Shown here piece by piece: positions 21,946 through 47,600 of a stretch of DNA of 64,000 nt. Each line of letters begins with the position of its first letter. The first letter of the stretch is position 1. The position numbers and the translations under genes are program-made. Where the stretch lies: positions 8,184,001-8,248,000 of the forward strand of contig NZ_CP108002.1 of NCBI RefSeq assembly GCF_041435055.1, read 5' to 3'. The notes below the pieces were generated by a model. The model had not been told where the DNA came from. It saw nothing but the letters and a program-made list of their open reading frames with translations, and searched no databases. Source of the stretch: Streptomyces sp. NBC_00341. Its GTDB lineage: Bacteria > Actinomycetota > Actinomycetes > Streptomycetales > Streptomycetaceae.

Positions 21946-21984
21946 GACGGCCGTTCCGGCGCGGCAGGCGCCGGAACGGCCGTC
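21946..21984. terminator. 17-bp stem hairpin terminator
   Basis: GACGGCCGTTCCGGCGC at 21946-21962 and its complement at 21968-21984 flank a 5-nt loop. It follows the leftward GMC gene (ends 22008) and separates it from the AhpD-like gene. Confidence 0.75.
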
Positions 21985-22007
21985 GGGGGAGGCCGGGCGG
22001 GTTCAGT

Positions 22008-23555
22008 TCACTCGGCGCGCAGCCAGTCCGCCAGCCGCTCACCGATCATGATCGAGGTGAGGTTGGTGTTGCAGTTGACGATGCTCGGCATCACCGAGGC
22101 GTCGGCCACGTACAGGCCCTCCACCCCGTGCACCCGCAGCTGTTCGTCCACCACTGCGCCCGCGTCGTCAGCGGTCCCCATGCGGGCCGTGCCCACCGGG
22201 TGGTAGCCGCTGTCCAGGCTCACCTTCACGTACTGCTCGACCATCGCGTCCTTCTCGATGAGCTTGTCGCTCAGCACGATGAAGCCGTCGCCCCGCGACG
22301 CGATCCCCGGGTGGTTGGCCAGCTCCCAGCAGGTCCGGACGCCCTGGACCATCTTCTCCAGGTCCCGTTCGGTGGAGAGGAAGTCGAGCTGGATGTCCGG
22401 CCCCGCCGCCGGGTCGGCCGAGGCCAGCCGCAGCCGGCCGACCGACTCCGGCTGCTGGTCCACCACCATCACACCGAAGATCATCGAAGCGCCGGCCAGC
22501 ATCTGAAGCTCGGGGAAGAGCTCCAGGTCGAAGTGGTTGACCATGTAGTACTGCATGTCGTTGAAGTCGGTGGACCCCTTGGACGTGGTCCGCACCATGG
22601 ACTGCAGGAACGGCACGTTCTCGTCCAGGGCCCCCTCCTTGGGCCGCATGAACACGCCGGTCCGCGGGTGGTCCATCAGGTGGGCGCCGACCCCGGGCCG
22701 GTCCAGCCGGACGTCGATCCCGAGCCTGGTCAGATCGTCGGCCGGGCCGATTCCCGAGCGCATCAGCAGCGTCGGGGTGTTGACCGCGCCGGCCGACAGA
22801 ACGACCTTGTGCGCCCGAAGTTCCTCCGGCTGGCCGGCACCGGCCGAGACCAGGACGCCGACCGCGCGGTCGCCCTCGAAGAGCACTTCGTGCACCAGCG
22901 TCCCGCTGCGGATGGCCAGGTTCTCCCGTGCCCGTACCTCGCCCGTCAGGTACGCCATCGCCGTCGAGACCCGGAAGCGGGGGTCGCGCCGGTTGGACGG
23001 GATCGGGCCGATACCGGTCGCCTCGGGGTGGTTGTGGTCGGAGACCTCGGGGAATCCGGTCGCCAGGCTCGCTTCGGTGAAGGCGCGCTGCATGGTGGTC
23101 ATCTCGTCCGGCTGGAACCTGCGGATCGGCACCGGGCCGCCCTTGCCGTGGTAGCGGCCCTCGAAGTTCAGGTCGTCCTCCAGCCGGCGGAAGTACGGCA
23201 GCACCTGCTCGTACGCCCACGCCGGGTTGCCCGCCGCCGCCCACTTGTCGTAGTTCTCGGGCACACCCCGCAGCGCGATGGTGGCCCCGACCGCGGACGA
23301 GCCGCCGGTGATCTTTCCTCGGGGGAAGAGGATGCGCCGGCCGTCCATGATCTCCGCGCGGTAGTGCCAGTCGTGCTTGCTCATCGACATGGCGTTGCCG
23401 TTGGTGATGTCGTGCGGGATGTCGGCCGGATCGGGAAAGTCCGGGCCCGCTTCGACGAGGAGCACCGAACGGGCCGGGTCCTCGCTCAGCCGGGCTGCGA
23501 GCGCCGCACCCGCGGAGCCCGATCCGACGATGATCGCGTCATACGTGTGCGTCAT
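22008..23555 (-). CDS. GMC-family flavoprotein oxidoreductase
   Basis: The 515-aa protein opens with the FAD-binding motif DAIIVGSGSAGAALAARLSEDP, followed by GGSSAVGATIALRG and a C-terminal GYHPVGTARMG and NTNLTSIMIGERLA, the standard choline-dehydrogenase/GMC signatures. The conserved C-terminal His of HPVGTARMG is present. GMC enzymes oxidise alcohols to aldehydes or ketones. The ATG at 23555 faces away from the UNBV operon across a 282-bp divergent promoter region. I recall SgcE9 and relatives in nine-membered enediyne clusters being oxidoreductases of this general kind, but the equivalence is not established here. Confidence 0.88.
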   Translation of the reverse strand: MTHTYDAIIVGSGSAGAALAARLSEDPARSVLLVEAGPDFPDPADIPHDITNGNAMSMSKHDWHYRAEIMDGRRILFPRGKITGGSSAVGATIALRGVPENYDKWAAAGNPAWAYEQVLPYFRRLEDDLNFEGRYHGKGGPVPIRRFQPDEMTTMQRAFTEASLATGFPEVSDHNHPEATGIGPIPSNRRDPRFRVSTAMAYLTGEVRARENLAIRSGTLVHEVLFEGDRAVGVLVSAGAGQPEELRAHKVVLSAGAVNTPTLLMRSGIGPADDLTRLGIDVRLDRPGVGAHLMDHPRTGVFMRPKEGALDENVPFLQSMVRTTSKGSTDFNDMQYYMVNHFDLELFPELQMLAGASMIFGVMVVDQQPESVGRLRLASADPAAGPDIQLDFLSTERDLEKMVQGVRTCWELANHPGIASRGDGFIVLSDKLIEKDAMVEQYVKVSLDSGYHPVGTARMGTADDAGAVVDEQLRVHGVEGLYVADASVMPSIVNCNTNLTSIMIGERLADWLRAE

Positions 23556-23837: not shown

Positions 23838-25817
23838 ATGTCGTACCGACAGCGATTCCGCAGGCTCATACCAGGGGTGGTCACGATATTGGTGGCGACC
23901 TCGCTGTTCTTCGTCGTCCGTACATCGGTGTCCGCCGCGGGCGGTGAAGAGGCTGCTGCGGCGTACAAGTTCAAGGAAATGCCGATCGCGATGCCACCCG
24001 GATACGACTCGCAGCCGAAGAAGACGATCCGTGAGGTGAACCCTGCCTACGAGAAGATCCGCGCCTGGATCTCCTCGGTCGGCGCCAGCATCGCGGTCAA
24101 CGATGTCACCGGCCACGGACTCGCCAACGGCATGTGCATCGTCGACACCCGTACCGACTCGGTCGTGGTCACCCACACCCCGACCGCTCCTACCGCCGAC
24201 CGGTTCACCCCGTTCGTGCTGGACGGCAAGCCGCTGCCGATGGACGACGCCATGGCACCCACCGGCTGCACCCCCGGCGACTTCAACGGCGACGGCCGCA
24301 ACGACTTCCTGGTCACCTACTGGGGACGCACTCCGGTGCTGTTCCTGGCGAAGTCCGACGCCAAGACCCCGTCCGCGTCCGCGTACGTCCCGCGCGAGGT
24401 CGTCGCCTCGCAGAGTCTCGACGGCAAGTACCACGGGCCGCGGTGGAACACCGACGCTGTCTACGTCGCCGACCTCGACGGCAGCGGCCACCCGTCGATG
24501 ATCGTCGGGAACTACTTCCCGGACTCCGACGTGCTCGACCCGAACGGCCTCAACAACGTCGAGATGAACGACTCGCTGTCCAGCGCGAAGAACGCAGGCG
24601 GTGACCACGTGCTGCGCTGGTACAAGGGATCGGCCGGCACCAACCCGGACGTCTCCTTCGTCGAGGAGAAGGACGCCATCCCGTACGCCAACTCCACCGG
24701 CTGGACGCTGGCCATCTCCGGCGCCGACCTGACCGGCTCCGGGCTGCCCGACGTCTACATCGCCAACGACTTCGGCCACGGGCACCTGCTGCACAACCGT
24801 TCCACCCCCGGCAACATCCGCTTCACGGAGGCCAAGGGCGAGCGCACCCCGACGACGCCGAAGTCGTTCGTGCTCGGCAACGGCTCCTTCAAGGGCATGG
24901 GGGTCGACTTCGGTGACGTCGACAGCAACGGCAGCTTCGACATGATGGTCAGCAACATCACCGTCGCCTGGGGCCTGGAGGAGAGCAACTTCCTCTGGGT
25001 CAACCAGGCCGACAGCCCGGCCGCCGCGAAGGCCGAACTGCAGGACGGCATCGCCCCGTTCAAGCAGGAGGCGCAGAAGAACGGCGTCGCCTGGACCGGC
25101 TGGGGCTGGGACGCCAAGATGGGCGACTTCCTCAACAACGGCCAGCAGAACATCCTGCAGGCCGACGGCTTCGTCAAGGGCGACATCGACCGCTGGCCGT
25201 GGCTCCAGGAATTGGCCATGACCAACGACAACCTGCTCTCCAACCCCGCGATGTGGCCGCACGTCGGCCCCGGTGACGACCTGGCCGGCGACGAGGTGAT
25301 GGCGTTCTATGCCCGGACCAGCAGCGGCAAGTACGCGAACGTGAGCAAGGAGCTCGGCCTCGACGTCCCGATCCCGACCCGTGCGATCGCCACCGCCGAC
25401 ACCACCGGCAGCGGCGCGCTGGACTTCGCGATAGCCCGCCAGTGGGGCCCTCCGGCGTTCTACGCCAACCAGGCCCCGAAGCTGGGCAAGGACCTGACAC
25501 TGCGGCTGTACCGGCCCGCGCCGGACTCCACCGCTGGAGAGGGGCTGGCCGCGACCGGCTCGCCCGCGTACGGCACCACGGTGAGCATCACCACGCCGCA
25601 GGGGCGGCAGATTGCCCAGCTCGACGGCGGCGGCGGGCACGGAGGCTTCCGTAGCTTCGACGTGCGCTTCGGCCTCGACACCTACACCGGCCCGGTGAAA
25701 GCGCACTTCACGTGGCGCGACAGCGGGGGCGGCCTGCACACCAGGACCCAGCAGCTCTCCGCGGGCAGCCACACCCTCATGCTGACCGACGACATCCAGG
25801 AGGTGACGAGCCGATGA
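23838..25817 (+). CDS. unbV: Enediyne protein UNBV (E4-type; exported, FG-GAP/ASPIC repeats)
   Basis: The 659-aa protein has an N-terminal signal or anchor (RRLIPGVVTILVATSLFFVV) ending in an Ala-rich processing region. A beta-propeller-like body follows with calcium-type FG-GAP loops: DFNGDGRND, ADLDGSGHP, DVDSNGSFD, ADTTGSGALD. The last part matches the ASPIC/UnbV domain (TTPQGRQIAQLDGGGGHGG..). UNBV is one of the five conserved proteins of the minimal enediyne cassette; its biochemical role is not settled. It starts the core operon and overlaps UNBU by 4 nt (ATGA). Confidence 0.92.
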   Translation: MSYRQRFRRLIPGVVTILVATSLFFVVRTSVSAAGGEEAAAAYKFKEMPIAMPPGYDSQPKKTIREVNPAYEKIRAWISSVGASIAVNDVTGHGLANGMCIVDTRTDSVVVTHTPTAPTADRFTPFVLDGKPLPMDDAMAPTGCTPGDFNGDGRNDFLVTYWGRTPVLFLAKSDAKTPSASAYVPREVVASQSLDGKYHGPRWNTDAVYVADLDGSGHPSMIVGNYFPDSDVLDPNGLNNVEMNDSLSSAKNAGGDHVLRWYKGSAGTNPDVSFVEEKDAIPYANSTGWTLAISGADLTGSGLPDVYIANDFGHGHLLHNRSTPGNIRFTEAKGERTPTTPKSFVLGNGSFKGMGVDFGDVDSNGSFDMMVSNITVAWGLEESNFLWVNQADSPAAAKAELQDGIAPFKQEAQKNGVAWTGWGWDAKMGDFLNNGQQNILQADGFVKGDIDRWPWLQELAMTNDNLLSNPAMWPHVGPGDDLAGDEVMAFYARTSSGKYANVSKELGLDVPIPTRAIATADTTGSGALDFAIARQWGPPAFYANQAPKLGKDLTLRLYRPAPDSTAGEGLAATGSPAYGTTVSITTPQGRQIAQLDGGGGHGGFRSFDVRFGLDTYTGPVKAHFTWRDSGGGLHTRTQQLSAGSHTLMLTDDIQEVTSR

Positions 25818-26833
25818 CCGACAACCGTTCCCGGACTGTCGAGGCGGCTCCGCACGCCGCCCAGCCCCACACCGAGAAGAAGAAACCCAACCGGGATCCC
25901 CGCTACCTGGCACTGCGCAACTTCGCCATCTCCATGAGCGTGTTCAACATCCTGGGCTACACCCTGCTCGGCTTCGAGCAGCCCTGGCTGTGGCCGATCA
26001 TCTGCGCGCCGTTCGCCTACGCGGTCGAGATGATGCTGGAGATGATCAGCGCCTGGGCCCAGAAGCGCCGGCCCCGCTTCCTGGGCGGCGGCTTCCGCAG
26101 GGTGTACGAGTTCCTGCTGCCCGCCCACATCACCGCGCTCGCGGTGAACATGCTGCTCTACGCCAACGACCTGCTGCTGCCCATCCTGCTCGGTGTCTTC
26201 ATCGGCGTGGCCGGCAAACACGTCCTCCAGGCACCGATCAACGGCCGCATGCGGCACTACATGAACCCGTCCAACTTCGGTATCACCGTCTCGCTGCTCA
26301 TGTTCGGCTCCTGGATCAGCATCGCCCCGCCGTACGAGTTCACCGAGAACGCGAACACGTTCTTCCGGGTCGGCATCCCGCTGGTCATCGCCACCGCGGG
26401 CACGGTCATCAACGCCATGCTCACCAAGCGGGTGCCGCTGATCGTCGGCTGGCTCGGCGGCTTCGTCATCCAGGCGGTGCTGCGCCACTTCATATGGGAC
26501 GTGGCGATCTGGTCCGCGCTCGGGCCGATGAGCGGTGTCGCCTTCGTGCTCTTCACCAACTACATGATCACCGACCCCGGAACCACCCCCTCGAAGGGCC
26601 GCAACCAGTTCATGTTCGGCTCCTCTGTCGCCATGGTCTACGGGCTGCTGATGGTCTTCAACGTCGTGTACACCCTCTTCTTCGCCACCACGATCGTGTG
26701 TGCCGTCCGCGGTATCGGCTGGTGGGTCGCCCACGGTCTGCAACGGCGCCGGGGCAACGACGCGACGAGCGGCACGGTGGCGCAGCCCACCGATCCACAG
26801 CGCCTGGCCGGCAACGAGGTGGTGGCAGCATGA
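25814..26833 (+). CDS. unbU: Enediyne protein UNBU (E5-type integral membrane protein)
   Basis: The 339-aa protein has a hydrophilic basic N-terminus, then about eight membrane segments. Family-typical stretches include NFAISMSVFNILGYTLLGFEQ, HYMNPSNFGI and FVLFTNYMITDPGTTPSKGRNQ in parts; the NPSNFG and TDPGTTP loops resemble the RnfD/NqrB fold, to which UNBU is distantly related. It is part of the minimal enediyne set; whether it transports, anchors or carries electrons is unknown. Its start overlaps the UNBV stop, and its TGA overlaps the PKSE ATG, so translation of the three is coupled. Confidence 0.92.
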   Translation: MTDNRSRTVEAAPHAAQPHTEKKKPNRDPRYLALRNFAISMSVFNILGYTLLGFEQPWLWPIICAPFAYAVEMMLEMISAWAQKRRPRFLGGGFRRVYEFLLPAHITALAVNMLLYANDLLLPILLGVFIGVAGKHVLQAPINGRMRHYMNPSNFGITVSLLMFGSWISIAPPYEFTENANTFFRVGIPLVIATAGTVINAMLTKRVPLIVGWLGGFVIQAVLRHFIWDVAIWSALGPMSGVAFVLFTNYMITDPGTTPSKGRNQFMFGSSVAMVYGLLMVFNVVYTLFFATTIVCAVRGIGWWVAHGLQRRRGNDATSGTVAQPTDPQRLAGNEVVAA

Positions 26834-29800
26834 CCGTAAGCGAACCGAGGCCCGTGACCACGGCCGAGAACGACGAGCGGGCACCCTCGGGCCGCATCGC
26901 GGTGGTCGGCATCGCCTGCCGCTACCCCGACGCCGAGAACCCCGAACAGCTCTGGCAGAACGTACTGGCGGGCCGCCGTGCCTTCCGTAAACTGCCTGAC
27001 CAGCGGATGCGCGCCGAGGACTACTACTCACCCGACCCCACCGCGCCCGACCGCTTCTACAGCGCCAAGGCCGCGGTGATCGAGGGCTTCGAGTTCGACC
27101 GGGTCCGCTACCGGGTGGCGGGCAGCACCTTCCGCTCCACCGACATGACCCACTGGCTCGCCCTTGACACCGCGGCCCGCGCCCTGGAGGACGCCGGCTT
27201 CCCGTACGGCGAGGGGCTGACGGGCGTCAACACCGGCGTCATCATCGGCAACACCCTCACCGGGGAGTTCAGCCGGGCCAACCTGATGCGGCTGCGCTGG
27301 CCGTACGTCCGCCGCACCGTCGGCGCCGCGCTGCGCGAGCAGGACTGGGACGACGAGGCACTCACCGTGTTCCTCGACAGCCTCGAACAGCGCTACAAGA
27401 GTGCCTTCCCGCCCATCGGCGAGGACACCCTGGCCGGCGGCCTGGCCAACACCATCGCAGGCCGCATCTGCAACCACTTCGACTTCAAGGGCGGCGGTTT
27501 CACCGTCGACGGCGCCTGCTCGTCCTCGCTGCTGTCGGTCTCCACCGCGTGCGACGCGCTGGCCCGCGGCACTATGGACGTTGCCGTGGCCGGCGGCGTG
27601 GACCTGAGCATCGATCCCTTCGAGGTGATCGGCTTCGCCAAGACCGGCGCGCTCGCCACCGGCGAGATGCGGGTCTACGACAAGGGCGCCAACGGCTTCT
27701 GGCCCGGCGAGGGCTGCGGCATGCTGGTCCTGATGCGGGACGAGGACGCCCGCGCGCAGGGCCGGTTCCGCTACGCCACCGTCGCCGGCTGGGGCTACTC
27801 CTCCGACGGGAAGGGCGGCATAACCCGGCCCGAGGCCAGCGGTCACCGGCTCGCCATGCGACGCGCCTACCGCACGGCCGGCTTCGGCATCGAGACCATC
27901 GGCTACTTCGAGGGCCACGGCACCGGAACGGCCGTCGGTGACGCCACCGAACTGCGCGCCTTCTCCGAGGCCCGCCGCGCCGCCGGGGCCCCCGCCCCGG
28001 CCGCCCTGAGCACAGTCAAGGGCAACTTCGGCCACACCAAGGCGGCGGCCGGCGTCGCTGGGCTCCTCAAGGCGATCCTCGCGGTCCGCCACCAGGTGAT
28101 CCCGCCCGCCACCAGCCATGTCGACCCGCATCCCGAACTCCTCGGCCCCGAGCCCGCGCTGCGGGTCCCCGACCGTGCCGAGCTGTGGCCCGAGGGCACG
28201 CCCATCCGGGCCGGGGTCTCCTCCATGGGCTTCGGCGGCATCAACGCCCACGTCGTGGTTGAGCACGCCGACGGCCTGCGGCGCAGCGCCGTGCCGAGCG
28301 TCACCCGCAAACTGGTCGCCTCCCGACAGGACGCCGAGCTGTTCCTGCTGGACGGCGCCGACCCGGAGGAACTGCGGGAGAAGGCGACCCACCTCGCGGA
28401 GTTCTGCGCCCAGCTGTCGTACGCCGAACTCGGCGACCTGGCAGCCACGCTCCAGGGCGAGCTGGACGGCCGGCCATTGCGCGCCGCAGTGCTCGTCGCC
28501 TCGCCCGAACAGGCCACCGAGCGGCTCACCGAGCTGGCCGGACAACTGGCCGCCGGAGTCCGCTCGCTGCTGGACACCCCGGGGGGTGTCTTCCTGGGCA
28601 GCGCCGGATCGGCCCCCCGGATCGGCTTCCTCTTCCCCGGCCAGGGCGCCGGAAAACGGGGCGACGGAGGCGCGCTGCGCCGCCGGTTCGCCGCCGTGGA
28701 CGAGCTGTACGACCGGCTCTCGCTGCCCACCGACGGCGACCTGGTCGCCACCGACGTCGCCCAGCCCAGGATCGTGGCCGCCTCGGTCGCGGGCCTGCGC
28801 ATCCTGGACATCCTCGGCATCGAGGCGGTCCGGGCCACCGGGCACAGCCTCGGGGAACTGACCGCCCTGCACTGGGCGGGCGCCATGGACGAGCCGACCG
28901 TGCTGAGCACGGCCGGCGCCCGCGGCCGGATCATGGCCACGGCCAGCGACGGCGACGGCACGATGGCGGCACTCGCGACCACCCCCGCACTCGCCGAGGC
29001 ACTGACCGTCGGCGAGCCGGTGGTGATCGCCGGCTACAACAGCCCGCAGCAGACCGTGGTGTCCGGCCCTGTCGCGGCGGTCGAACGGGTCTGCGCACGG
29101 GCGGCGGGCCAGGGCGTCGGCGTGGCGAGGATCAATGTCTCGCACGCCTTCCACTCACCGGCCGTCGCCCCGGCCGCGGCCGGACTCGCCGAGCATCTGG
29201 CAACCGAGCAGTTCGGCCGGATCGGCGGGGGCCTGGTCTCCACCGTCACCGGCGGACTGCTGCCCGTCGAAACCGACGTCGTGGACCTGCTCACCCGGCA
29301 GGTTCTGCAACCGGTCCGGTTCACCGAGGCGCTCCAGGAGATGGACGGCGAGGTGGACCTGCTGATCGAGGTCGGACCGGGACACGTACTGAAGTCGCTG
29401 GCCGCCGACATCCTGCCGGATGTGCCCGCGGTCGCCACCGAGGCGGACGCCCTGTCACTGACCGGGCTGCTCGGCACGGTCGCCGCCGCCTGGACGATGG
29501 GCGCGCCGGTCCGGCACAGCCGGCTCTTCGCCGGGCGTTTCACCCGGCCCCTGCCGCTGGACAAGGAGTTCCTGTTCTTCGCCAGCCCCTGCGAGTCCAA
29601 CGGCGAGGACTTCGTGCTGGAGCAGTCGGTATCGGCCGCGCTGCCCGAGCTCACCGTTCTCGCGCCCACCGCCGACACCACGGCAGCCGGCGGGGAGGAT
29701 GCCTCCAGCCTGGAGGTACTGCTCCGGCTGGCCGCCGAGCGGGCCGAACTCCCGGTCGAAACGGTCGATCCGGCGGCCAACCCACTCGATGAACTGCACC

Positions 29801-32715
29801 TGAGCTCCATCACCGTCGGCCAGATCATGAATCAGGCCGCCCAGGAGCTGGGCATCTCCGCCCCCATGGTCACCACCGCGTTCGCCACCTCCACGCTGGG
29901 GCAACTCGCCGAACTCCTCGACGAGCTGGCCGAGCAGACGCCCGACGACCACCAGCCGTCCGCCGCCCCCGGCGTCGCGAGCTGGGTACGCCCGTTCGTG
30001 GTCGATCTGACACCGGCCGAGCTGCCCGGCGGCCCCGCCGCCGGGCCCGGTGGCGACTGGGAGGTCTTCGCCTCCGACCGGCACCCGCTGGCCGGCCCGC
30101 TGGCCGAGAAGCTGCGCGCGACCGGGCCCGGCGCGGGCGTCCTGCTCGCCCTGCCCCGCGACTGCGGCCAGGAGCACATCGGGCTGATGCTCGACGCCGC
30201 CCGAGCCGCACTCGACCCGGATCGGCGTGCCGCCGGCACCCGGCTGGTCGCCGTCGGCGACCGCAGGGGAGCGGCGGGCCTGGCCAAGACGCTGCACCTG
30301 GAAGCACCGGACATCCCGGTCACCGTCGTCACCCTGCCGTTGCCCGAGGGCATGACGGCTGATGCGGCCGAGCGGATCAGCGTCCGGATCGCCGCTGACG
30401 CGGTGGCCACCGCCGGGTTCAGCGAGGTGCACTACGACGCCGATGGCGTGCGGCGGGAGCCGGTGCTGCGGGCGGTGGAGCTCGCGACGGACTCCACCCA
30501 CCAGGCGCTGGACGAGGGCGACGTCCTGCTGATCACCGGCGGCGGCAAGGGCATCACCGCCGAGTGCGCCATCTCGCTGGCCGGGCCGAGCGGTGCGGCG
30601 ATCGGGCTGATGGGCCGCTCCGACCCCGCCGAGGACGCCGAGCTCGCGGACAACCTGGCCCGGATGGAAGCGGCGGGTGTCCGGGTGTACTACGCGCGGG
30701 CCGACGTCACCGACGTCGACCAGGTCAAGGCCGCGGTCGGCGAGATCACCAAGGCGCTCGGCCCGGTCACCGGGCTGCTGCACGGTGCGGGCCGCAACCA
30801 GCCGCAGGCACTCGCCAACCTGGACGAGGACTCGTTCCGCCGCACACTGGCCACCAAGATCGACGGTGTGGAGGCCGTGCTGGCCGCGATCGACCCGGCG
30901 GCGCTGCGGCTCTTCGTGACCTTCGGCAGCATCATCGGCCGGGCGGGACTGCGCGGCGAGGCGGACTACGCCACCGCCAACGACTGGCTCACCGAGCTGA
31001 CCGTCCAGTTTCAGCAGGACTACCCCGACTGCCGCTGCCTGGCACTGGAGTGGTCGGTCTGGTCCGGTGCCGGCATGGGGGAGCGGCTGGGCGTCCTGGA
31101 GGGGCTGGTCCGCGAAGGCATCGAGCCGATCCCCGCCGACCAGGGCGTGGAACTGCTCGGCCGGCTGCTGGCCGACACCGGTGTCCCGCCGGCCCTGGTG
31201 GTGATGGGCCGGGCCGGCGGCCTGCCGACGCTCACCCTGGAGCAGCGCGAACCGCCGCTGCTGCGGTTCCTGGAACGCGTCCAGGTCCACTACCCCGGCA
31301 TCGAACTGGTCGCGGACGCCGAACTCGGCGGCGGCAGCGATCTCTACCTGCCCGACCACCTGCTGGACGGCGACCTGCTCTTCCCCGCCGTCCTCGGCAT
31401 GGAGGCCATGGCCCAGGTGGCCACCGCGTTGACCGGCCACCAGGACACGCCGGTGCTGGAGGACATGCGGTTCCTGCGGCCCATCGTGGTCCCGGTGAAC
31501 GGCACGACGACTCTGCGCGTCGCCGCCCTGGTCACCGGACCCGGCACGGTCGAGGCGGTGGTGCGCAGCAGTGAGACCGGCTTCCAGGCCGACCACTTCA
31601 GGGCCACCCTGCGCTTCGGCGGGCCGGAGCCGGCCGGCGACCAGGCGCCGGTCACCGACCAGGTGCCGCGGGTGCCGCTGGAACCCCGTGAGCTGTACGG
31701 GCCGGTGCTCTTCCAGGGCGAACGCTTCCAGCGGCTGCTCGGCTACCGGGACCTGGCCGCCAAGCACTGCCTGGCCGAGATCGACGACACTCCCCGGGCC
31801 GACTGGTTCGCCGCCTACCACCCGGGCGAACTGGTACTGGCCGACCCGGGTACCCGTGACGCGCTCATGCACTCCATCCAGGCGTGCGTGCCCGACGCCA
31901 CCCTGCTGCCGGTGAGCGTGGCACGGCTGCATCTCGCGGCCCGGCCGGCGCGACACACCGGCCGACTGCTGTTCCTCGACGCCCGCGAGCGGTCCCGGGA
32001 CGGCGACAGCTACCTCTACGACCTGGACGTCCGCGACGAGGAGGGCAGGCTGGTCGAGCGCTGGGAGGGCCTGCTGCTGCGGGCGGTGCGCAAGCAGGAC
32101 GGAGCCGGCCCCTGGCTGCCGGCCCTGCTCGGCCCCTTCCTGGAACGGCGCGCCGAAGCGGCGCTCGGCCACCCGCTACGGTGCGTCGTGCTGCCCGGAG
32201 GCTCGGTGGACGGGTCCTCGGTGGACGAGCGCCGGCAGCGCACCGCCCAGGCTGTGAGCTGGGCGCTGGGGCGTACCACCGAGGTGCACCACCGGCCCGA
32301 CGGACGGCCCGAACTGGCCGACAGGCGACGGGTGTCCTCCTCGCACGCGGCGGGCGTCACCTTCGCCGTGGTCGCCGACCAGGCCGTCACCTGCGACATC
32401 GAGGTGGCAGCCGATCGGCCGGCCGACGAATGGGCCGCGCTGCTCGGCCCCGACGGCCTGGCGCTGGCACGGCTGCTCGCCGAGGGGCGGGGCGAGGCGC
32501 TGAGCCTGGCCGCCACCCGGGTGTGGGGCGCGGTGGAGACACTGCGCAAGGCGGGCCACGCGGTGGCCGCGCTGAGCCTGGACGGCGACGCGGGACTGCC
32601 GTCCGGCTGGGTGGCCTTCCGGGGCGGCGCACACCGCATCACGTCCTTCGCGACCGCCCTGGAGGGCGTCGCCGATCCGGTGTCGTTCACCGTGCTGACC
32701 GAGGGGACCCGATGA
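26830..32715 (+). CDS. pksE: Iterative enediyne polyketide synthase (PKSE)
   Basis: The 1961-aa synthase has the enediyne domain order. KS: active Cys230 in GACSSSLLS, His363 in EGHGTGT, His402 in NFGHTKAAAG. AT: Ser673 in GHSLGEL. ACP: Ser992/993 in LHLSSITVGQ (the serine before Ile is the expected phosphopantetheine site). KR: ITGGGKGIT near 1235. DH: His1510 in PDHLLDGDLLFP. A C-terminal self-acting phosphopantetheinyl transferase covers about 1790-1961. It iteratively builds a C15/C16 polyene from malonyl units, released by the thioesterase encoded next, as the precursor of enediyne cores or as 1,3,5,7,9,11,13-pentadecaheptaene. Length is normal for the family and all key residues are present. 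Confidence 0.97.
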   Translation: MTVSEPRPVTTAENDERAPSGRIAVVGIACRYPDAENPEQLWQNVLAGRRAFRKLPDQRMRAEDYYSPDPTAPDRFYSAKAAVIEGFEFDRVRYRVAGSTFRSTDMTHWLALDTAARALEDAGFPYGEGLTGVNTGVIIGNTLTGEFSRANLMRLRWPYVRRTVGAALREQDWDDEALTVFLDSLEQRYKSAFPPIGEDTLAGGLANTIAGRICNHFDFKGGGFTVDGACSSSLLSVSTACDALARGTMDVAVAGGVDLSIDPFEVIGFAKTGALATGEMRVYDKGANGFWPGEGCGMLVLMRDEDARAQGRFRYATVAGWGYSSDGKGGITRPEASGHRLAMRRAYRTAGFGIETIGYFEGHGTGTAVGDATELRAFSEARRAAGAPAPAALSTVKGNFGHTKAAAGVAGLLKAILAVRHQVIPPATSHVDPHPELLGPEPALRVPDRAELWPEGTPIRAGVSSMGFGGINAHVVVEHADGLRRSAVPSVTRKLVASRQDAELFLLDGADPEELREKATHLAEFCAQLSYAELGDLAATLQGELDGRPLRAAVLVASPEQATERLTELAGQLAAGVRSLLDTPGGVFLGSAGSAPRIGFLFPGQGAGKRGDGGALRRRFAAVDELYDRLSLPTDGDLVATDVAQPRIVAASVAGLRILDILGIEAVRATGHSLGELTALHWAGAMDEPTVLSTAGARGRIMATASDGDGTMAALATTPALAEALTVGEPVVIAGYNSPQQTVVSGPVAAVERVCARAAGQGVGVARINVSHAFHSPAVAPAAAGLAEHLATEQFGRIGGGLVSTVTGGLLPVETDVVDLLTRQVLQPVRFTEALQEMDGEVDLLIEVGPGHVLKSLAADILPDVPAVATEADALSLTGLLGTVAAAWTMGAPVRHSRLFAGRFTRPLPLDKEFLFFASPCESNGEDFVLEQSVSAALPELTVLAPTADTTAAGGEDASSLEVLLRLAAERAELPVETVDPAANPLDELHLSSITVGQIMNQAAQELGISAPMVTTAFATSTLGQLAELLDELAEQTPDDHQPSAAPGVASWVRPFVVDLTPAELPGGPAAGPGGDWEVFASDRHPLAGPLAEKLRATGPGAGVLLALPRDCGQEHIGLMLDAARAALDPDRRAAGTRLVAVGDRRGAAGLAKTLHLEAPDIPVTVVTLPLPEGMTADAAERISVRIAADAVATAGFSEVHYDADGVRREPVLRAVELATDSTHQALDEGDVLLITGGGKGITAECAISLAGPSGAAIGLMGRSDPAEDAELADNLARMEAAGVRVYYARADVTDVDQVKAAVGEITKALGPVTGLLHGAGRNQPQALANLDEDSFRRTLATKIDGVEAVLAAIDPAALRLFVTFGSIIGRAGLRGEADYATANDWLTELTVQFQQDYPDCRCLALEWSVWSGAGMGERLGVLEGLVREGIEPIPADQGVELLGRLLADTGVPPALVVMGRAGGLPTLTLEQREPPLLRFLERVQVHYPGIELVADAELGGGSDLYLPDHLLDGDLLFPAVLGMEAMAQVATALTGHQDTPVLEDMRFLRPIVVPVNGTTTLRVAALVTGPGTVEAVVRSSETGFQADHFRATLRFGGPEPAGDQAPVTDQVPRVPLEPRELYGPVLFQGERFQRLLGYRDLAAKHCLAEIDDTPRADWFAAYHPGELVLADPGTRDALMHSIQACVPDATLLPVSVARLHLAARPARHTGRLLFLDARERSRDGDSYLYDLDVRDEEGRLVERWEGLLLRAVRKQDGAGPWLPALLGPFLERRAEAALGHPLRCVVLPGGSVDGSSVDERRQRTAQAVSWALGRTTEVHHRPDGRPELADRRRVSSSHAAGVTFAVVADQAVTCDIEVAADRPADEWAALLGPDGLALARLLAEGRGEALSLAATRVWGAVETLRKAGHAVAALSLDGDAGLPSGWVAFRGGAHRITSFATALEGVADPVSFTVLTEGTR

Positions 32716-33188
32716 CGCAACCGGCCTACTACGAGTACCGCCACCTGGTGGGCTTCGAGGAGACCAACCTCGTCGGCAACGTCTACTACGTCAACTACCT
32801 CCGCTGGCAGGGCCGCTGTCGGGAGATGTTCCTGCGCGACCGGGCTCCCGAGGTGCTCGCCGACATCCGTGCCGACCTCAAGCTGTTCACCCTGAAGGTG
32901 GACTGCGAGTTCTTCGCCGAGATCACCGCCTTCGACGAACTGTCCATCCGGATGCGGCTGCTGGACCTCACACAGACCCAGATCGCCTTCACCTTCGACT
33001 ACGTGCGGCTCGGTCCCGACGGAAGCGAAACCCTGGTCGCGCGCGGGCAGCAGAGGATCGCCTGCATGCGCGGTCCCAACACCGACACCCGTCCGACCAG
33101 GGTCCCCGAGCCGCTGCGGCTCGCCCTGGTCCCGTACAGCGTCTCCGGTACGGCGTCCTCCCGGACGCTCACCACTACTGCGGGGTGA
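32712..33188 (+). CDS. tebC: Enediyne hot-dog thioesterase TEBC (E10-type)
   Basis: The 158-aa protein is a single hot-dog domain. The characteristic segment is GFEETNLVGNVYYVNYLRWQ, followed by GRCREMFL, as in CalE7/SgcE10/DynE7; the usual catalytic Asp/Glu of hydroxybenzoyl-CoA thioesterases is replaced by Asn, as is normal for this subfamily. It hydrolyses the polyene beta-keto thioester from the PKSE ACP, leading after decarboxylation to the heptaene. It overlaps the PKSE stop by 4 nt and the flavin reductase start by 4 nt. Confidence 0.95.
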   Translation: MTQPAYYEYRHLVGFEETNLVGNVYYVNYLRWQGRCREMFLRDRAPEVLADIRADLKLFTLKVDCEFFAEITAFDELSIRMRLLDLTQTQIAFTFDYVRLGPDGSETLVARGQQRIACMRGPNTDTRPTRVPEPLRLALVPYSVSGTASSRTLTTTAG

Positions 33189-33763
33189 TCCACATGTCCA
33201 TCGTCCCATCCGCCTCTGTTCCGCTGCCCGGTCCGCTCGACCTGCCGCCGCTTCCCGCGGAGGCGCCCGAGGCGGACATCCACGACCGTCGCGCACTGCG
33301 CGGGGTGCTGGGGCGTTTCGCCACCGGGGTGACCGTACTGACCGCGGGACGCGACGCGCCGCGCGGCATGACCGCCAACTCCTTCACCTCCGTCTCCCTC
33401 GAACCGGCCCAGGTGCTGGTGTGCGTAGTGAAGTCGGCGTCCATCCACCAACTCGTGATGGCCGAGCAGGCTTTCGCGGTCTCGGTGCTCAGCCGGGACC
33501 AGGAATGGGTGGCCCGCCACTTCGCCGACCACTCACGCCCGCGCGGTGCGGCGGAGTTCGCCGGCATCGACCACGAACCCGGCCGGCACACCGGAGCCCC
33601 CGTGCTGGGCCACGTCCAGGCATGGCTGGAGTGCCGGCTCAGCGCCATCCACGACGGGGGTGACCACACCATCTTCGTGGGCTCGGTACTGGGCGCGGGC
33701 AACGCGTCGGGCGAGGACCCGCTGCTCTTCCTGGGCGGGGCCTTCCGCCGCGTCGCCGCCTGA
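33185..33763 (+). CDS. Flavin reductase (E6-like, HpaC-type)
   Basis: The 192-aa protein has the flavin reductase/FMN-binding split-barrel pattern: LRGVLGRFATGVTVLTAGRD, GMTANSFTSVSLEPAQVLVCV and VGSVLGAG, then a C-terminal LLFLGGAFRRV. These enzymes supply FADH2 or FMNH2 to monooxygenases; SgcE6 plays this role in C-1027 biosynthesis. The GTG at 33185 overlaps the thioesterase stop (GTGA) and is my choice; an ATG at 33194 is possible. It could serve the group D flavin monooxygenases seen elsewhere in the window (inference). The operon ends with two strong hairpins. Confidence 0.9.
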   Translation: MIHMSIVPSASVPLPGPLDLPPLPAEAPEADIHDRRALRGVLGRFATGVTVLTAGRDAPRGMTANSFTSVSLEPAQVLVCVVKSASIHQLVMAEQAFAVSVLSRDQEWVARHFADHSRPRGAAEFAGIDHEPGRHTGAPVLGHVQAWLECRLSAIHDGGDHTIFVGSVLGAGNASGEDPLLFLGGAFRRVAA

Positions 33764-33776
33764 CCCCGGTTCGAAC

Positions 33777-33810
33777 GGGAAGCCCGGCCGCTGCCCCGGC
33801 CGGGCTTCCC
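33777..33810. terminator. 14-bp stem terminator ending the core operon
   Basis: GGGAAGCCCGGCCG at 33777-33790 and its complement at 33797-33810 enclose a 6-nt loop, starting 14 bp after the flavin reductase stop. Confidence 0.8.
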
Positions 33811-33849
33811 GCGTTGTCCGCCGCACCCCGCGGCGGACTCCGGAACGCG

Positions 33850-33888
33850 AACGGCCGCCCCGGGCTACTGCTGCCCGGGGCGGCCGTT
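33850..33888. terminator. Second tandem hairpin terminator (P450 side)
   Basis: AACGGCCGCCCCGGGC and its exact complement flank a 7-nt loop. It lies just beyond the 3' end of the leftward P450 gene (33921), so each convergent operon has its own terminator. Confidence 0.8.
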
Positions 33889-33920
33889 GGCGTGACCGGT
33901 CCGTCCTCGCCGGCGCACCG

Positions 33921-35312
33921 TCAGTTCCGCGCCTCAACGGTCATCGGCAGGCCGCCCTTGACCCGCAGGGTCAGCATCGGCTCGGCCCGCACCTTGTGGC
34001 CCGGGGGGACCGAGAGCCGCAGCCGGCGCAGCAGGACGGCGAGTACTACCGTGGCCTCCATCATCCCCAGGCTGCTGCCGACACAGACCCGCGGTCCCGC
34101 ACCGAACGGTACGTAGCTGTACCGGTGCCGGTCCGCGGAGCGGCCCTTGGCGAACCGTTCCGGGTCGAACCGGTCCGGGTCCTCCCAGAAGTCCGGGTGC
34201 CGGTGCAGTGTGTAGGGGCACAGCACCACATCGGCGCCGGCCGGAACCCGGTAGCCGCCGATCTCGTCCGCCGCCAGCGCCCTGCGCGGCAGCAGCCACA
34301 CCGCCGGGTACAGCCGCATCACCTCCTGGAGCACCATTGACGTGTACGTGAGCCGGTGGAAGTCCTCGATGGCCGGCAGCCGGTCGCCCAGTACCTCGTC
34401 GATCTCGGCGCGTACCCGGTCGCCCGCCTCGGGGTGCCGGTCCAGCAGATACAGCGTCCAGTTGAGGGTGCTGGCGGTGGTGTCGTGCCCGGCGAGCAGC
34501 AGGGTGATCAGCTCGTCGCGCATCCGGTTCTGCCGGACCGTCGGATCCCGCTCGTCGGCCGTCGCGTCGATGAGGCGCGAGAGCACGTCGTCGCGAGTGC
34601 CGTCGGAAGCCGGTTGCTGTTCCCGCTCCTGGGCGAGCGCGGCCACGATGCGGTTCAGTTCGGCCCGCGCCTTGCGGAACCTCAGCTGCAGGGGCAGCGG
34701 TACCCAGGTGGGCACCGAACTCAGGCTCATCATCTCGAAGACGGCCTGGTCCTGGACGATTTCGAAGGCCTCGCCGATGGACTCGTACGCGCCCAGGTCC
34801 GCGTCCAGCAGCGAGCGGCCGAGCACCCCGAGGGTGAGCCCGGTCATCTCCTGCCGGATGTCCACCGCTCCCACGCCCGCCGACCGCCTCAGCCGGCCGG
34901 CCAGCAGCAGCGCCTCCTCGCCGATGGCCCCGATCTGCCGGTTGATCCGGCGCGGCTGGAACGCCGGCTGGATCACCTTGCGCTGGGCACGCCACAGCGG
35001 GCCCTCACTGGTCAGCAGGCCGTTGCCGAGCGCGCGGCGGGCGTGCACCAGACCGATGCCCTTGTGGTAGTTGGCGCTGTTGTCGGTCAGTACCCGGCGG
35101 ATGTGGTCGGGGTGGTTGAAGAAGTACAGGGTCTTGGGGCCGAGCGGCAGCCGTACCGCGTCGCCGTAGGTGGCCGCTGCCTCGGTCATCACTGCCAGCC
35201 GATCGGAGGCCATCCGGGCCAGGAGCAGCGGGGTGCCGGCCCGCGACGGCCCCGGTGGCCGACGCGGCCGGCCGCCGCCCGGCGGGGCCGGTACCGGGCC
35301 CACGCCGGTCAT
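33921..35312 (-). CDS. Cytochrome P450 monooxygenase
   Basis: The 463-aa protein contains the I-helix AGHDTTAS, the K-helix ExxR in EVMRLYP, and the haem loop FGAGPRVCVGSSLGMMEA with the Cys ligand. The layout (LLLPRRALAADEIGGYRVPAG, DPERFAKGRSADRHRYSYVPFG in parts) is closer to CYP102-like/fatty-acid-type class enzymes than to typical Streptomyces CYP105/107; the SgcE7-type P450s of enediyne clusters may be comparable. It starts at an ATG overlapping the UNBL stop by 4 nt, so it forms a coupled UNBL-P450 operon. Likely hydroxylates or epoxidises the polyene-derived intermediate (inference). Confidence 0.9.
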   Translation of the reverse strand: MTGVGPVPAPPGGGRPRRPPGPSRAGTPLLLARMASDRLAVMTEAAATYGDAVRLPLGPKTLYFFNHPDHIRRVLTDNSANYHKGIGLVHARRALGNGLLTSEGPLWRAQRKVIQPAFQPRRINRQIGAIGEEALLLAGRLRRSAGVGAVDIRQEMTGLTLGVLGRSLLDADLGAYESIGEAFEIVQDQAVFEMMSLSSVPTWVPLPLQLRFRKARAELNRIVAALAQEREQQPASDGTRDDVLSRLIDATADERDPTVRQNRMRDELITLLLAGHDTTASTLNWTLYLLDRHPEAGDRVRAEIDEVLGDRLPAIEDFHRLTYTSMVLQEVMRLYPAVWLLPRRALAADEIGGYRVPAGADVVLCPYTLHRHPDFWEDPDRFDPERFAKGRSADRHRYSYVPFGAGPRVCVGSSLGMMEATVVLAVLLRRLRLSVPPGHKVRAEPMLTLRVKGGLPMTVEARN

Positions 35313-36292
35313 GCCCGCGCCTCGGGGGCGTCGCTGGAGACCCGCTCGGCTATCTCCCGGCGCCATACCTCGTACGCCGTCAGCCGGCCGTCCACGACGG
35401 GATCGGGCCGGGCCCGCGAGCAGACCTCGGTGACCTGCTGCGGGCTCATGCCGCAGAGCAGTTGCGCGGCCATTTCGGTGTGCGGTGTCAGCAGCCCGGC
35501 CTCCACCCGGGTGGTCGAGGCGAAGGCCACGCCCTGAGCGAGTTGCGGCCGGTAGTGGCCGGCCCGTTCGAGCAGGTACAGCAGCTCGGCCTCGCCGGCA
35601 CCGCCGGCGTAGCAGGCGGCCAGGCCGACCCCGCTGTAGAGATCGGCCCGCCGGTTCGCCGCGAAGCTGTCCACCAGGTCCGCGACCACGGCCGGGTCGG
35701 TGCCGCCGATGAACCAGAGCGCCCGCCCGATGCCCTGGTCGACGGCGTGCCCGGCGTACCGCCGAGTCTCGTCGCCGGGCCACGGGAAGGACGGGTCCCG
35801 GTACTGCTCGCGCACATAGCGCTGGGTACGGAAGTAGGCCTGGTGGAACCCGTATCCGTCCAGGGCCAGCCAGCGCAGCAGTGGGTCGGCGGGTGCGATG
35901 GACGCCCACCGGAAGCGGGGCAGCCGGGCCATCGCCCAGCCGACCCCGACGTGCACCATGTAGCCGTGCGGGGCGCCGTGGCCCGCCAGGAAGGCCGGTA
36001 TCCGGCCGTTGCCGGGTATCGGAAGTCCGTCCAGCATGGCCAGTCCCATCGCCGCGCCCTCGTAGGCGAAGCCGCGGAACCGCACCGGAATCCGTTCCAG
36101 CCGCTGGTGCGCCTCGTCCTGGTCGCGTGCCTCGACGGCGAACGCGTACCCGTCGAGGAAGGTCGCCCCGACCGTTTCGAGCGTCTCCCGCGCCTCGGGG
36201 CTCTTCTCGTGGAAGCCCCGGGTGGACAGCTTGGTCTCGTTGTGGCTCGGTGTCATCAGACGGCGCCTGACCGCTCGCCAGCTCGCGCTCAT
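35309..36292 (-). CDS. unbL: Enediyne protein UNBL (E3-type, DUF1702)
   Basis: The 327-aa protein shows the DUF1702 pattern: basic start SASWRAVRRRLMTPSHNET, then TRGFHEKSPEARETLETVG, AYEGAAMGLAMLDG (FAYEGAAMG), FLAGHGAPHGYMVHVGVGWA and LDGYGFHQAYF. UNBL is the fifth member of the minimal enediyne cassette; role unknown. I choose ATG 36292 because GGAGGG precedes it and the added RRR segment fits the family, over ATG 36256. In described cassettes UNBL sits directly upstream of UNBV on the same strand; here it is about 9.5 kb away from the UNBV end, inverted, and coupled to a P450. Confidence 0.9.
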   Translation of the reverse strand: MSASWRAVRRRLMTPSHNETKLSTRGFHEKSPEARETLETVGATFLDGYAFAVEARDQDEAHQRLERIPVRFRGFAYEGAAMGLAMLDGLPIPGNGRIPAFLAGHGAPHGYMVHVGVGWAMARLPRFRWASIAPADPLLRWLALDGYGFHQAYFRTQRYVREQYRDPSFPWPGDETRRYAGHAVDQGIGRALWFIGGTDPAVVADLVDSFAANRRADLYSGVGLAACYAGGAGEAELLYLLERAGHYRPQLAQGVAFASTTRVEAGLLTPHTEMAAQLLCGMSPQQVTEVCSRARPDPVVDGRLTAYEVWRREIAERVSSDAPEARA

Positions 36293-36559: not shown

Positions 36560-37519
36560 GTGACCGATACCACCTCCGTTCCGGCCCCGCCGCACGCCAC
36601 GTCGCTCTTCGTCAACGGCCTGTTCCCGCGCCGCCGGGTCCTGCTCCTCGTGCTCAGTCTGCTCGGCGGCCTACTGATCGCCTACGCATGGTCCTCGAAG
36701 CTGGCGGACGACGAGATCGGCTTCCGTACCGCCAGCCAACTGCTCGGTCATGACGCCAAGGACACGCCGCTGTCCGGCATCGCCTCCGGGGTGCTCTTCG
36801 CCCTGGTGTCCGGGCTGGCAGGCTCCTTCACGGCCTGCAACGTGGCCGTGTTCGGAGCGGTGGGACCGCTGGTCGGGCAGATCAGCCTGACCCGCCGTCA
36901 GCGGCTGACACACGCGCTGCGGCCGCTGGGCTGGATGGCGGCCGGCATGCTGCCGGTCTCGGCCGCCTACGGGGTGCTGGTCGGTCTCGTCGGCACCCAC
37001 ATGCCGCAGTTCTCGATGGCGCAGACGCAGGGCATCTCACCCCGAATCGCCCAGGCCATGATCGTGTACGGGGTGCTCGGCCTGTTCATGCTGGCGCTCG
37101 GGCTGGCCGCGGCCGGTCTGATCCCCGACCCGCTGGCGGCAGTCTCGCGCCGGCACCCGAACGCTCCGCTGGTGTTGATCGGCGTCATGGTCGGCGCCTT
37201 CCTGATCGGCCGCCCCTACCCGCTGTTCCGTAACCTGTTCCGGCAGGCGGCCGAGGAACACAACCCGCTCTATGGAGCAGTCGCCTTCTCGCTCCAGTCC
37301 ATCGGCAACTTCGTGGTGATGGCGGTGCTCTTCCTGCTCCTGTCCTACACCCTCAGCCGGCCCGTCCAGCGCTGGCTGGCCACCAAGCCCGGCCGGGTGG
37401 CGACGCTGACCGCGTCCGCGTTCCTGGTGGCCGGCGCGTTCACGGTCATCTACTGGGACATCCGGATGCTGGGCAGGCTCGACTACATATGGTTCCCGAC
37501 GGCTCCCTGGAATGCGTAG
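36560..37519 (+). CDS. Polytopic membrane protein of unknown function
   Basis: The 319-aa protein has about seven to eight hydrophobic helices. The segment SGLAGSFTACNVAVFGAVGPLVG, placed early, resembles the first helix of CcdA/DsbD- and TauE-like proteins, but it has only one Cys there, so thiol transport is not demonstrated. The central part has HMPQFSMAQTQGISPRIAQAMIVYG in pieces, then LLLSYTLSRPVQRWLA. I do not recognise a named family. The GTG at 36560 follows AGAGGAGA. It is divergent from UNBL with a 267-bp shared promoter region, so it may act in export, self-protection or redox supply for the pathway (inference). Confidence 0.65.
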   Translation: MTDTTSVPAPPHATSLFVNGLFPRRRVLLLVLSLLGGLLIAYAWSSKLADDEIGFRTASQLLGHDAKDTPLSGIASGVLFALVSGLAGSFTACNVAVFGAVGPLVGQISLTRRQRLTHALRPLGWMAAGMLPVSAAYGVLVGLVGTHMPQFSMAQTQGISPRIAQAMIVYGVLGLFMLALGLAAAGLIPDPLAAVSRRHPNAPLVLIGVMVGAFLIGRPYPLFRNLFRQAAEEHNPLYGAVAFSLQSIGNFVVMAVLFLLLSYTLSRPVQRWLATKPGRVATLTASAFLVAGAFTVIYWDIRMLGRLDYIWFPTAPWNA

Positions 37520-37549: not shown

Positions 37550-37589
37550 AACGGCGGCTCCGGGCCCTACTGGGTCCGGAGCCGCCGTT
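37550..37589. terminator. Terminator between membrane-protein and TetR genes
   Basis: AACGGCGGCTCCGG and its complement CCGGAGCCGCCGTT form a 14-bp stem at 37550-37589. It lies just past the membrane protein stop and covers the last codons of the convergent TetR gene. Confidence 0.75.
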
Positions 37590-38217
37590 GTGCGGCCCCG
37601 GCCAAGGACTCCTGGGCCCGCTGCGGATCGTCCCCCGCGCCCAGGATCATTCCGCTCACCTGCGCCTCGAAGCAGACGTCCGCGGTGTTGGGCTCGACCA
37701 GGTAGCCGCCGAGATCCAGGGTGACCAGGCCGTGCAGGGCGATCCACAGTTGATGGGCGACCAGTTCGGGGTCGAGGGGACGGAAGCGGCCGGTCGCGGC
37801 GCAGCGCTTGACCGCTCCGACGAGGATGTCCAGGGTGTAGCGGCCGTGCTGCCGGTCGGCGTCGGTGAGGGAGAAACCGCTGAGACCCGAGCCGCCGAAC
37901 ATCACGTTGTACAGGTGCCAGTGCTCCCGGGCGTTGTCCCGGTACGCCCAGCCGAGCGCGAGCACGTCGGCGACCGGGTCGTCGCTCTCCTCGACCGCCC
38001 CCATCCTGTCGCCGAGCAGCCTGAACCCCTCGTGGACCATCGCGCGCACCAGGTCGTCCATTCCGCCGAAGTACGTGTAGACGGCCGTGGTCGAGGTGCC
38101 CACCATGGCTGCCAGCTTGCGGGTGGACAGTGCGGCCGGCCCCTCCTCGCCGAGCAGCTTCGCCGCGGCGTCGATGAGTTGGGGACGGAGATTCGGGTCA
38201 ACGGGTCGTGGGCTCAC
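37567..38217 (-). CDS. TetR-family regulator (WHG-type C-terminal domain)
   Basis: The 216-aa protein has an N-terminal HTH (PQLIDAAAKLLGEEG, STRKLAAMVGTSTTAVYTYFGGMDDLV) and a C-terminal domain with WAYRDNAREHWHLYNVMFGG, typical of the WHG/TetR_C_33 group often found beside P450s and carotenoid oxygenases. The start is GTG at 38217. The divergent gene is the carotenoid oxygenase; the 80-bp gap contains the palindrome CGTTACGTAACG, the probable operator. It likely represses the oxygenase and itself; the ligand is unknown. Confidence 0.88.
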   Translation of the reverse strand: MSPRPVDPNLRPQLIDAAAKLLGEEGPAALSTRKLAAMVGTSTTAVYTYFGGMDDLVRAMVHEGFRLLGDRMGAVEESDDPVADVLALGWAYRDNAREHWHLYNVMFGGSGLSGFSLTDADRQHGRYTLDILVGAVKRCAATGRFRPLDPELVAHQLWIALHGLVTLDLGGYLVEPNTADVCFEAQVSGMILGAGDDPQRAQESLAGAAQRRLRTQ

Positions 38218-47580: not shown

Positions 47581-47600
47581 ATCCGGGAGTCGCAACGACG

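Follow-up and report, generated by a model that had tools for sequence, protein, structure and literature searches.

We analysed a stretch of 64,000 nucleotides (the window) from the genome of Streptomyces sp. NBC_00341, which carries an enediyne-type gene cluster built around a five-protein cassette. The window has a G+C content of 69% and covers positions 8,184,001–8,248,000 on contig 1 of the genome, which totals 9.06 Mb and consists of three contigs. The genes UNBV (E4), UNBU (E5), PKSE (E), and TEBC (E10) and a flavin reductase gene lay head to tail on the forward strand (23838–33763). UNBL (E3; 36292 to 35309), followed by a cytochrome P450 gene (35312 to 33921), lay on the reverse strand (33921–36292) and pointed toward the forward operon. 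The stop codon of UNBL (327 amino acids) and the start codon of the P450 gene (463 amino acids) overlapped as ATGA. An overlap of the same kind (ATGA or GTGA) was found in 14 of 21 relatives, with a frame of 450 codons or more beginning there in every case, and was not seen in the other seven examined (L020, L022, L024, L033, L048, L072, and L118; L and G numbers are our handles for loci and genomes). The statement of the earlier note on this DNA that UNBL lies on the opposite strand beyond the flavin reductase gene, coupled to a P450 gene, was thus confirmed.

The same note had reported all five cassette proteins with intact key motifs, and the family hits and the active-site residues across 56 aligned PKSEs bore this out. 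At each of Cys222, His355, and His394 of the PKSE KS, Ser665 of the AT, and Ser985 of the ACP, at most one of the 56 sequences departed from the conserved residue. The C-terminus was recognised as PPTase-type by motif only; its residues 1848, 1850, and 1899 were kept in 45–47 of the 56 sequences, seven rows being gapped there. The best solved relative of TEBC was 4i4j, annotated as an ACP-polyene thioesterase, which we take to be SgcE10 of C-1027. The cassette therefore comprises a PKSE with intact active sites, a TEBC of the SgcE10/CalE7 type, and E3, E4, and E5. UNBU is presumably an integral membrane protein, and structure prediction gave a confident all-helical model for UNBL. The solved relatives of the flavin reductase, 4r82 and 4hx6, we take to be SgcE6. 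PDB relatives of the P450 included plant carotenoid hydroxylases, which may hint at the nature of its substrate. In comparisons with L005, L010, and L007, as far as these were covered, the nonsynonymous rate (dN) stayed below the synonymous rate (dS) for all core genes included, as a rough estimate from our own Nei-Gojobori script.

Distribution of the gene order

A scan for UNBL in one genome per species gave 395 relatives, of which the best 80 were kept; the closest were from Streptomyces. The core order of the window was found exactly in 10 of the 80 kept loci (L002–L011; Streptomyces and Kitasatospora). A separate search with DUF1702 and the thioesterase gave the same core order in seven Micromonosporaceae loci (L150–L156), a number that is uninformative on frequency since these loci were chosen because the two genes faced each other. 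The order was complete in seven further Streptomycetaceae (G893, G711, G717, G747, G801, G814, and G653; UNBL of G747 is cut at the stretch end) and partly visible in three more whose stretches end there (G753, G799, and G710); the stretch from G677 did not cover the cassette. The full order was thus seen in 25 genomes of the Streptomycetaceae and Micromonosporaceae, including that of the window, which indicates that the inverted UNBL–P450 order is a conserved layout. An assembly error or a chance rearrangement in one strain can be dismissed, since 25 assemblies representing two or more families agree on the order.

The next gene detected downstream of E3 was recorded at 122 loci (130 minus eight duplicates, second pieces, or cassette-less loci). 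It was UNBV on the same strand at 73 loci, which agrees with the earlier description of UNBL as displaced from UNBV, P450 at 26, PKSE at five, and another gene at two. Twelve of the remaining loci had no UNBV in the stretch, and four had no DUF1702 copy of at least 48% identity, three of them with a more distant copy before UNBV. These counts are not population frequencies, because the score considers only genes homologous to those of the window and the loci were picked mostly by DUF1702. The inverted order was also looked for in clusters of characterised type; in both the calicheamicin-type locus L140 and the sporolide-type locus L141, E3 lies directly before UNBV. Among the matches listed from the open-licence literature, we found no description of this order or of clusters of this kind lacking E2.

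The adjacency of E3 and P450 also occurred in other layouts, namely as E2-E3-P450 in L020, L022, L024, L033, L046, L048, L052, L059, and L118, and the available text of PMC5181780 already reports cassettes in which E5 or E10 is separated from E. The order alone is therefore weak evidence for a new class. The earlier suggestion that it may define a subtype held insofar as the order goes with a distinct subtype, but the order itself is conserved in 25 genomes and E3 adjoins P450 elsewhere.

Several variant loci were observed in the course of these comparisons. L045 (Streptomyces sp. HPF1205) is a sparse variant in which UNBV-UNBU-PKSE-TEBC faces UNBL; no P450 or flavin reductase gene was found near the cassette in the stretch read, and no AhpD orthologue in the genome. 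The cassette of Actinosynnema pretiosum DSM 44132 (L041, with L168 and L169) has only a short PKSE-like stretch (41%), and the genome holds a long PKSE with TEBC about 33 kb away as well as a second UNBV-UNBU pair. Three Streptomyces loci (L134, L135, and L139 in G187, G252, and G009) carry four divergent DUF1702 genes beside a distant polyketide synthase (about 30% to PKSE), and UNBV, UNBU, and TEBC were not detected in those stretches.

DUF1702 genes, linked genes, and ring-size markers

According to the available text of PMC5181780, E2 and E3 are separate subfamilies, and the exclusive presence of E2 or R3 predicts 9- or 10-membered products, respectively. DUF1702 genes were therefore counted in whole genomes. 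The window genome contained a single DUF1702 gene of the E3 type. In a FastTree phylogeny of 215 DUF1702 proteins, its product fell on the E3 side with the calicheamicin-type and sporolide-type copies; at 79 loci, a single copy lay on the E3 side and another outside it, and no locus placed two there. A tblastn search of the window with four E2 proteins gave a significant match to the E3 gene only, with no second copy or E2 remnant, which rules out a hidden E2 in the window. One DUF1702 gene was found in all 25 same-order genomes (the window genome, 10/10 of L002–L011, 7/7 Micromonosporaceae, where seven of nine candidates were scored in G590, and 7/7 further Streptomycetaceae). DUF1702 was present in 28 of 295 Streptomyces genomes, including that of the window, and 22 of the 28 had two or more copies. 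Thirteen of 50 relatives' genomes had exactly one (including all of L002–L011) and 37 had two or more, some of the extra copies belonging to a distant subfamily (e.g., G339). The earlier note had treated UNBL as one gene; the window gene is indeed E3, but most compared genomes carry both E2 and E3, and E2 is missing here.

The AhpD, SDR, and GMC genes adjacent to the cassette (20240–23555) were also present in the E2-less loci L007, L011 (Kitasatospora), L041 (Actinosynnema), L053 (Actinacidiphila), and L150 and L155 (Micromonosporaceae). A search for the trio at the sporolide-type locus and at two sister clusters, L052 and L118, yielded nothing beyond weak SDR matches (25–36%). Among 80 genomes searched, an AhpD orthologue was present in 21 of the 22 E2-less genomes akin to that of the window (the window, L002–L011, L041, L045, L053, L072, and seven Micromonosporaceae; L045 was the lone miss) against one of 58 others, which comprised E2-bearing genomes and calicheamicin-type genomes without E2. 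In a fresh test with AhpD alone as the query, 18 of 394 Streptomycetaceae genomes matched at 1e-40. Eleven of the genomes with AhpD were new to the analysis; a single DUF1702 match was obtained in each of ten, and in G677 the gene was split into two neighbouring pieces. Among 396 genomes drawn from the phylum, only that of the window matched.

The published name R3 required interpretation. SgcR3 of C-1027 is TylR-like in the available text of PMC2657911, so that R3 gene names are not comparable between clusters, and the protein family was used instead. TnmR3 is described in the accessible part of PMC9464397 as an AarF/ABC1/UbiB kinase-family protein, and TnmR2 as a member of the same family; R2 and R3 are therefore not separable here. 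We take the R3 of PMC5181780 to correspond to the TnmR3 family. The ABC1 protein of the window was 50–61% identical to the copies of distant family members (L011, L041, L045, G717, and G814) and 39–52% identical to kinases of other enediyne-type genomes, compared with 27–37% to generic ABC1 proteins. In a careful tree, it grouped with the enediyne-type kinases, 100/100 apart from four generic ABC1 proteins, and a kinase encoded 18 kb from a calicheamicin-type thioesterase gene fell in the same clade. This R2/R3-type kinase was found in the window genome and in all ten of L002–L011. It was not found at 1e-30 in any of the seven Micromonosporaceae members, which thus carry neither E2 nor the kinase marker.

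Thirty genomes with at least two DUF1702 genes and not of the calicheamicin type were tested for the kinase, and seven of them (G522, G331, G334, G335, G329, G317, and G321) had a kinase match of at least 40%. None of the seven kinase genes lay within 100 kb of the tandem E2-E3 pair; the nearest was 128 kb away (G317), the rest were far or on other contigs, and several adjoined another DUF1702 or thioesterase gene. In G344, and likewise in G516 and G509, whose assemblies are fragmented, kinase and cassette were on different contigs. In the sporolide-type genome (G522:C1, near 679161–683900), a second TEBC-like gene (44% to CalE7) was observed about 3 kb from an R2/R3-type ABC1 kinase gene.

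The earlier note had proposed a PKSE tree as a check. A quick KS-AT tree of 55 loci placed the window in a clade of 14 members, which also contains ten further E2-less loci and three E2-bearing ones (L052, L059, and L118). The sister group of seven (L048, L024, L033, L038, L046, L017, and L050) is entirely E2-bearing. The clade was separate from the main E2-bearing group holding L141 and L018 and apart from the CAL-type group; in this unrooted tree it was on the same side as the R2/R3-bearing L136–L138 (support 91). A seven-gene tree of 20 loci recovered these neighbours and placed L118 at a fork that was not resolved.

The cluster of Phytohabitans flavus (L018) is placed with 9-membered PKSEs in the available text of PMC7692728. 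This cluster and L141 share with the window the PKSE, UNBV, UNBU, E3, TEBC, flavin reductase, P450, AraC, and carboxymuconolactone-decarboxylase-like relatives, but differ in carrying E2 as an additional DUF1702 gene and in having E3 immediately ahead of UNBV, and their genomes (G311 and G522) had no AhpD relative at 1e-20. We take L141 to be from S. tropica and of the sporolide type. L140, named calicheamicin-type because its thioesterase is 97% identical to CalE7, shares with the window the single E3, the absence of E2, and the R2/R3-type kinase. It differs in its canonical cassette order, in a PKSE of another group, and in that no P450 was found beside the cassette and no AhpD orthologue in the genome. 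The E2-bearing sisters L048 (Streptomyces sp. CB02056), L059 (TSRI0107), and L052 (S. ficellus) are the closest PKSE kin outside the family; they share E3 followed by P450 and a UNBV-UNBU pair of 68–80% identity, but keep E2 as E2-E3-P450 in genomes without an AhpD orthologue.

These results indicate that the defining trait of the subtype is the loss of E2 combined with the presence of the AhpD/SDR/GMC trio, to which some members add an R2/R3-type kinase. By the markers, the sole genomic DUF1702 gene is not the E2 of 9-membered clusters, and the kinase would correspond to the R3 of 10-membered clusters, R2 and R3 not being told apart. The published ring-size rule does not fit the family, because E2 is absent, the kinase occurs in one branch only, and the PKSE is kin to those of E2-bearing clusters. 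Stronger and more useful than the gene order are two other facts, namely that E2 was lost in company with a linked gene set and that the ring-size markers conflict with PKSE kinship.

Extent and composition of the cluster

The cassette marked in the earlier note spans 12.5 kb. Conservation of linked genes spanned about 13.5 to 58.3 kb of the window, giving a cluster of about 45 kb, the features of which are listed in the table.

Table. Features of the enediyne-type cluster in the window (positions are those of the window).
Feature	Positions	Strand	Evidence
MDMPI/DinB-fold protein, cluster-associated	13479–14261	+	PF11716; relatives beside cassettes in L007, L053, G711
ABC1/AarF kinase-like protein, R2/R3 type	14411–15664	+	PF03109, identities, tree
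NAD-dependent epimerase/dehydratase	15879–16901	+	PF01370; 51–73% relatives in L141, L150, L155, L007, L011, L053
MDMPI/DinB-fold protein	16898–17599	+	PF11716; relatives in L150–L156, L007, L011
AraC-family regulator	17755–18552	-	PF12833
Carboxymuconolactone-decarboxylase-like protein	18911–19963	-	PF02627; also beside E2-bearing cassettes
SDR of trio	20240–21118	-	PF00106; 68–88% relatives in L007, L011, L041, L053, L150, L155
AhpD-like peroxidase-related protein, family marker	21115–21750	-	TIGR01926 above cut-off
GMC oxidoreductase	22008–23555	-	PF00732/PF05199
UNBV (E4)	23838–25817	+	PF13517 (FG-GAP), PF07593 (UnbV_ASPIC)
UNBU (E5)	25814–26833	+	Homologues adjoin UNBV across compared loci; Pfam: none
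PKSE (E), KS-AT-ACP-KR-DH, PPTase-like C-terminus	26854–32715	+	Domain hits, active-site residues, trees
TEBC (E10), 4HBT hot-dog thioesterase	32712–33188	+	253 bits to 4i4j, 223 bits to CalE7 2w3x
Flavin reductase	33185–33763	+	PF01613; best solved relatives 4r82/4hx6
Cytochrome P450, ATGA-coupled to UNBL	33921–35312	-	PF00067; heme motif FGAGPRVCVG
UNBL (DUF1702), E3 type	35309–36292	-	PF08012, 431 bits
TM320, putative membrane protein by sequence	36560–37519	+	No family above cut-off
TetR-family regulator	37567–38217	-	
RPE65/carotenoid-cleavage-dioxygenase family protein	38376–39683	+	PF03055; 52–80% relatives within E2-less family
MFS transporter	39823–41196	-	
AHSA1/SRPBCC protein, beside ArsR regulator (41491–41847)	41844–42305	-	PF08327; 69–78% relatives in G893, G711, G801
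Two-component flavin monooxygenase, HsaA/XiaF-like	45209–46393	-	5lvu, 1e-50
Alpha/beta hydrolase, SDR, DUF899, AMP-ligase, p-hydroxycinnamoyl-CoA hydratase/lyase	46427–51647	-	
Likely right edge: AraC regulator (+), PEP-utilizers_C protein (-), FAD/NAD protein (-)	54169–58301	+/-	Relatives linked in L007, L041

The p-hydroxycinnamoyl-CoA hydratase/lyase matched NF006588 with 338 bits (cut-off 276), and the SDR, DUF899, ligase, and lyase genes of its segment occurred together in L041, L053, L155, and G711. Self-resistance proteins like CalC or TnmS, as we take these names to denote, were considered for the AHSA1/SRPBCC protein and a glyoxalase-family protein; the former had no PDB match and the latter only a weak one, to RV0577. 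TM320 recurs near both E2-less and E2-bearing cassettes and could be an undescribed pathway component. A LanC-like protein (PF05147; 59275–60456) is encoded beyond the cluster edge.

Possible product and significance

The gene content, order, and conservation, the intact active sites, and the lack of a second DUF1702 gene observed here make it probable that the window holds an intact, conserved enediyne-type cluster of about 45 kb from a family that lost E2. Several points weigh against this reading. The cluster is known from its genes, and its edges were set by gene conservation alone. The genome-wide search was made with AhpD alone; SDR and GMC were read in the fetched stretches. G321 has a 48% AhpD relative on another contig despite two tandem DUF1702 genes, and in the E2-less L045 (G326), neither the AhpD/SDR/GMC trio nor a P450 or flavin reductase gene was present in the stretch read near the cassette. 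The calicheamicin-type genomes G564, G516, and G509 have neither E2 nor an AhpD orthologue, so that AhpD marks the window's family and not the absence of E2 as such; that the trio took the place of E2 is conjecture. Furthermore, the E2-bearing L052, L059, and L118 lie within or beside the E2-less clusters in the trees. Holding the E2-less rows together was not rejected in approximately unbiased (AU) tests (p-AU 0.233; 0.061 without L045; 0.178 on KS-AT), whose groups were named after the trees had been seen, and a single loss of E2 is possible. The arrangements of L118 (G080; FRED-E2-E3-P450 on one strand) and L052 (P450-E3-E2 opposite to UNBV) suggest that the ancestral unit was E2-E3-P450. 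The present layout probably arose when such an operon lost E2 and its E3-P450 part was inverted, with a timing that we infer.

For this E2-less family, we propose a pathway from the gene content, every chemical step of which, like the ring size, we infer. PKSE would make a long conjugated polyene to be released by TEBC; a PKSE expressed with a thioesterase yields a heptaene in the available text of PMC8725005. UNBV, UNBU, and the single UNBL would convert the polyene to an enediyne-type core. This core may then be oxidised by the P450 that is co-translated with UNBL and by oxidases dependent on the flavin reductase. The GMC, SDR, and AhpD proteins may act at or around the step that otherwise involves E2. 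The AMP-ligase, the p-hydroxycinnamoyl-CoA hydratase/lyase, and the HsaA-type monooxygenase would supply an aromatic side group from a hydroxycinnamate.

It is quite possible that the core is 9-membered, E2 being dispensable and its role taken by other enzymes. The E2-bearing members and sisters of the KS-AT clade are consistent with such a core, as are the P450 genes common near E3 or behind the flavin reductase gene in E2-bearing clusters (e.g., L141) and the relationship of TEBC to the presumed SgcE10 structure. The missing E2, the R2/R3-type kinase in the 11 Streptomyces and Kitasatospora members tested, and the position of the PKSE clade outside the main E2-bearing group argue against it. 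A more speculative reading, which we advance with considerable reserve, is that E2-less clusters represent a third core type, in which the DUF1702 duplication into E2 and E3, elsewhere associated with the formation of 9-membered rings, was undone, AhpD, SDR, and GMC were recruited instead, and the core fits neither marker rule. If so, natural loss of E2 would isolate what E2 does.

A 10-membered core, as predicted by the published E2/R3 rule, seems unlikely. The absence of E2, the shared clade of the window and calicheamicin-type kinases, and the grouping with L136–L138 in the unrooted tree favour it, but the nearest PKSE relatives carry E2, all seven Micromonosporaceae members were without the kinase, and the 20 kb examined about the cassette at each of the ten R2/R3-labelled tree loci contained no P450 of more than 30% identity. 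We know of no explanation for how a 9- or a 10-membered core is chosen in nature.

We consider it improbable that an enediyne is no longer made and that the product is a polyene or an oxidised polyene, cleaved for example by the RPE65-family dioxygenase. Loss of E2, the presence of this dioxygenase, and the carotenoid-hydroxylase relatives of the P450 would fit such a product. Free polyenes are also reported, in the available text of PMC11563203, from an iterative polyketide synthase with an enediyne-like KS in Rhodococcus erythropolis PR4 (RerA/RerB). As described there, RerA and RerB alone made the polyenes, and the system differs in its tandem ACPs and separate PPTase-TE protein, a distinction drawn from the description only. 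In the window, UNBV, UNBU, and UNBL are under purifying selection, and RPE65-family genes also occur in the E2-bearing L052 and L118.

Genome mining that expects E2 or R3, or E3 beside UNBV, could misclassify clusters of this kind. The family amounts to a natural experiment in the removal of E2, one that extends over several actinomycete families and is tied to a defined gene set, which makes the role of E2 testable. Its members include the named strains Streptomyces clavifer JCM 5059 and Kitasatospora cheerisanensis KCTC 2395.

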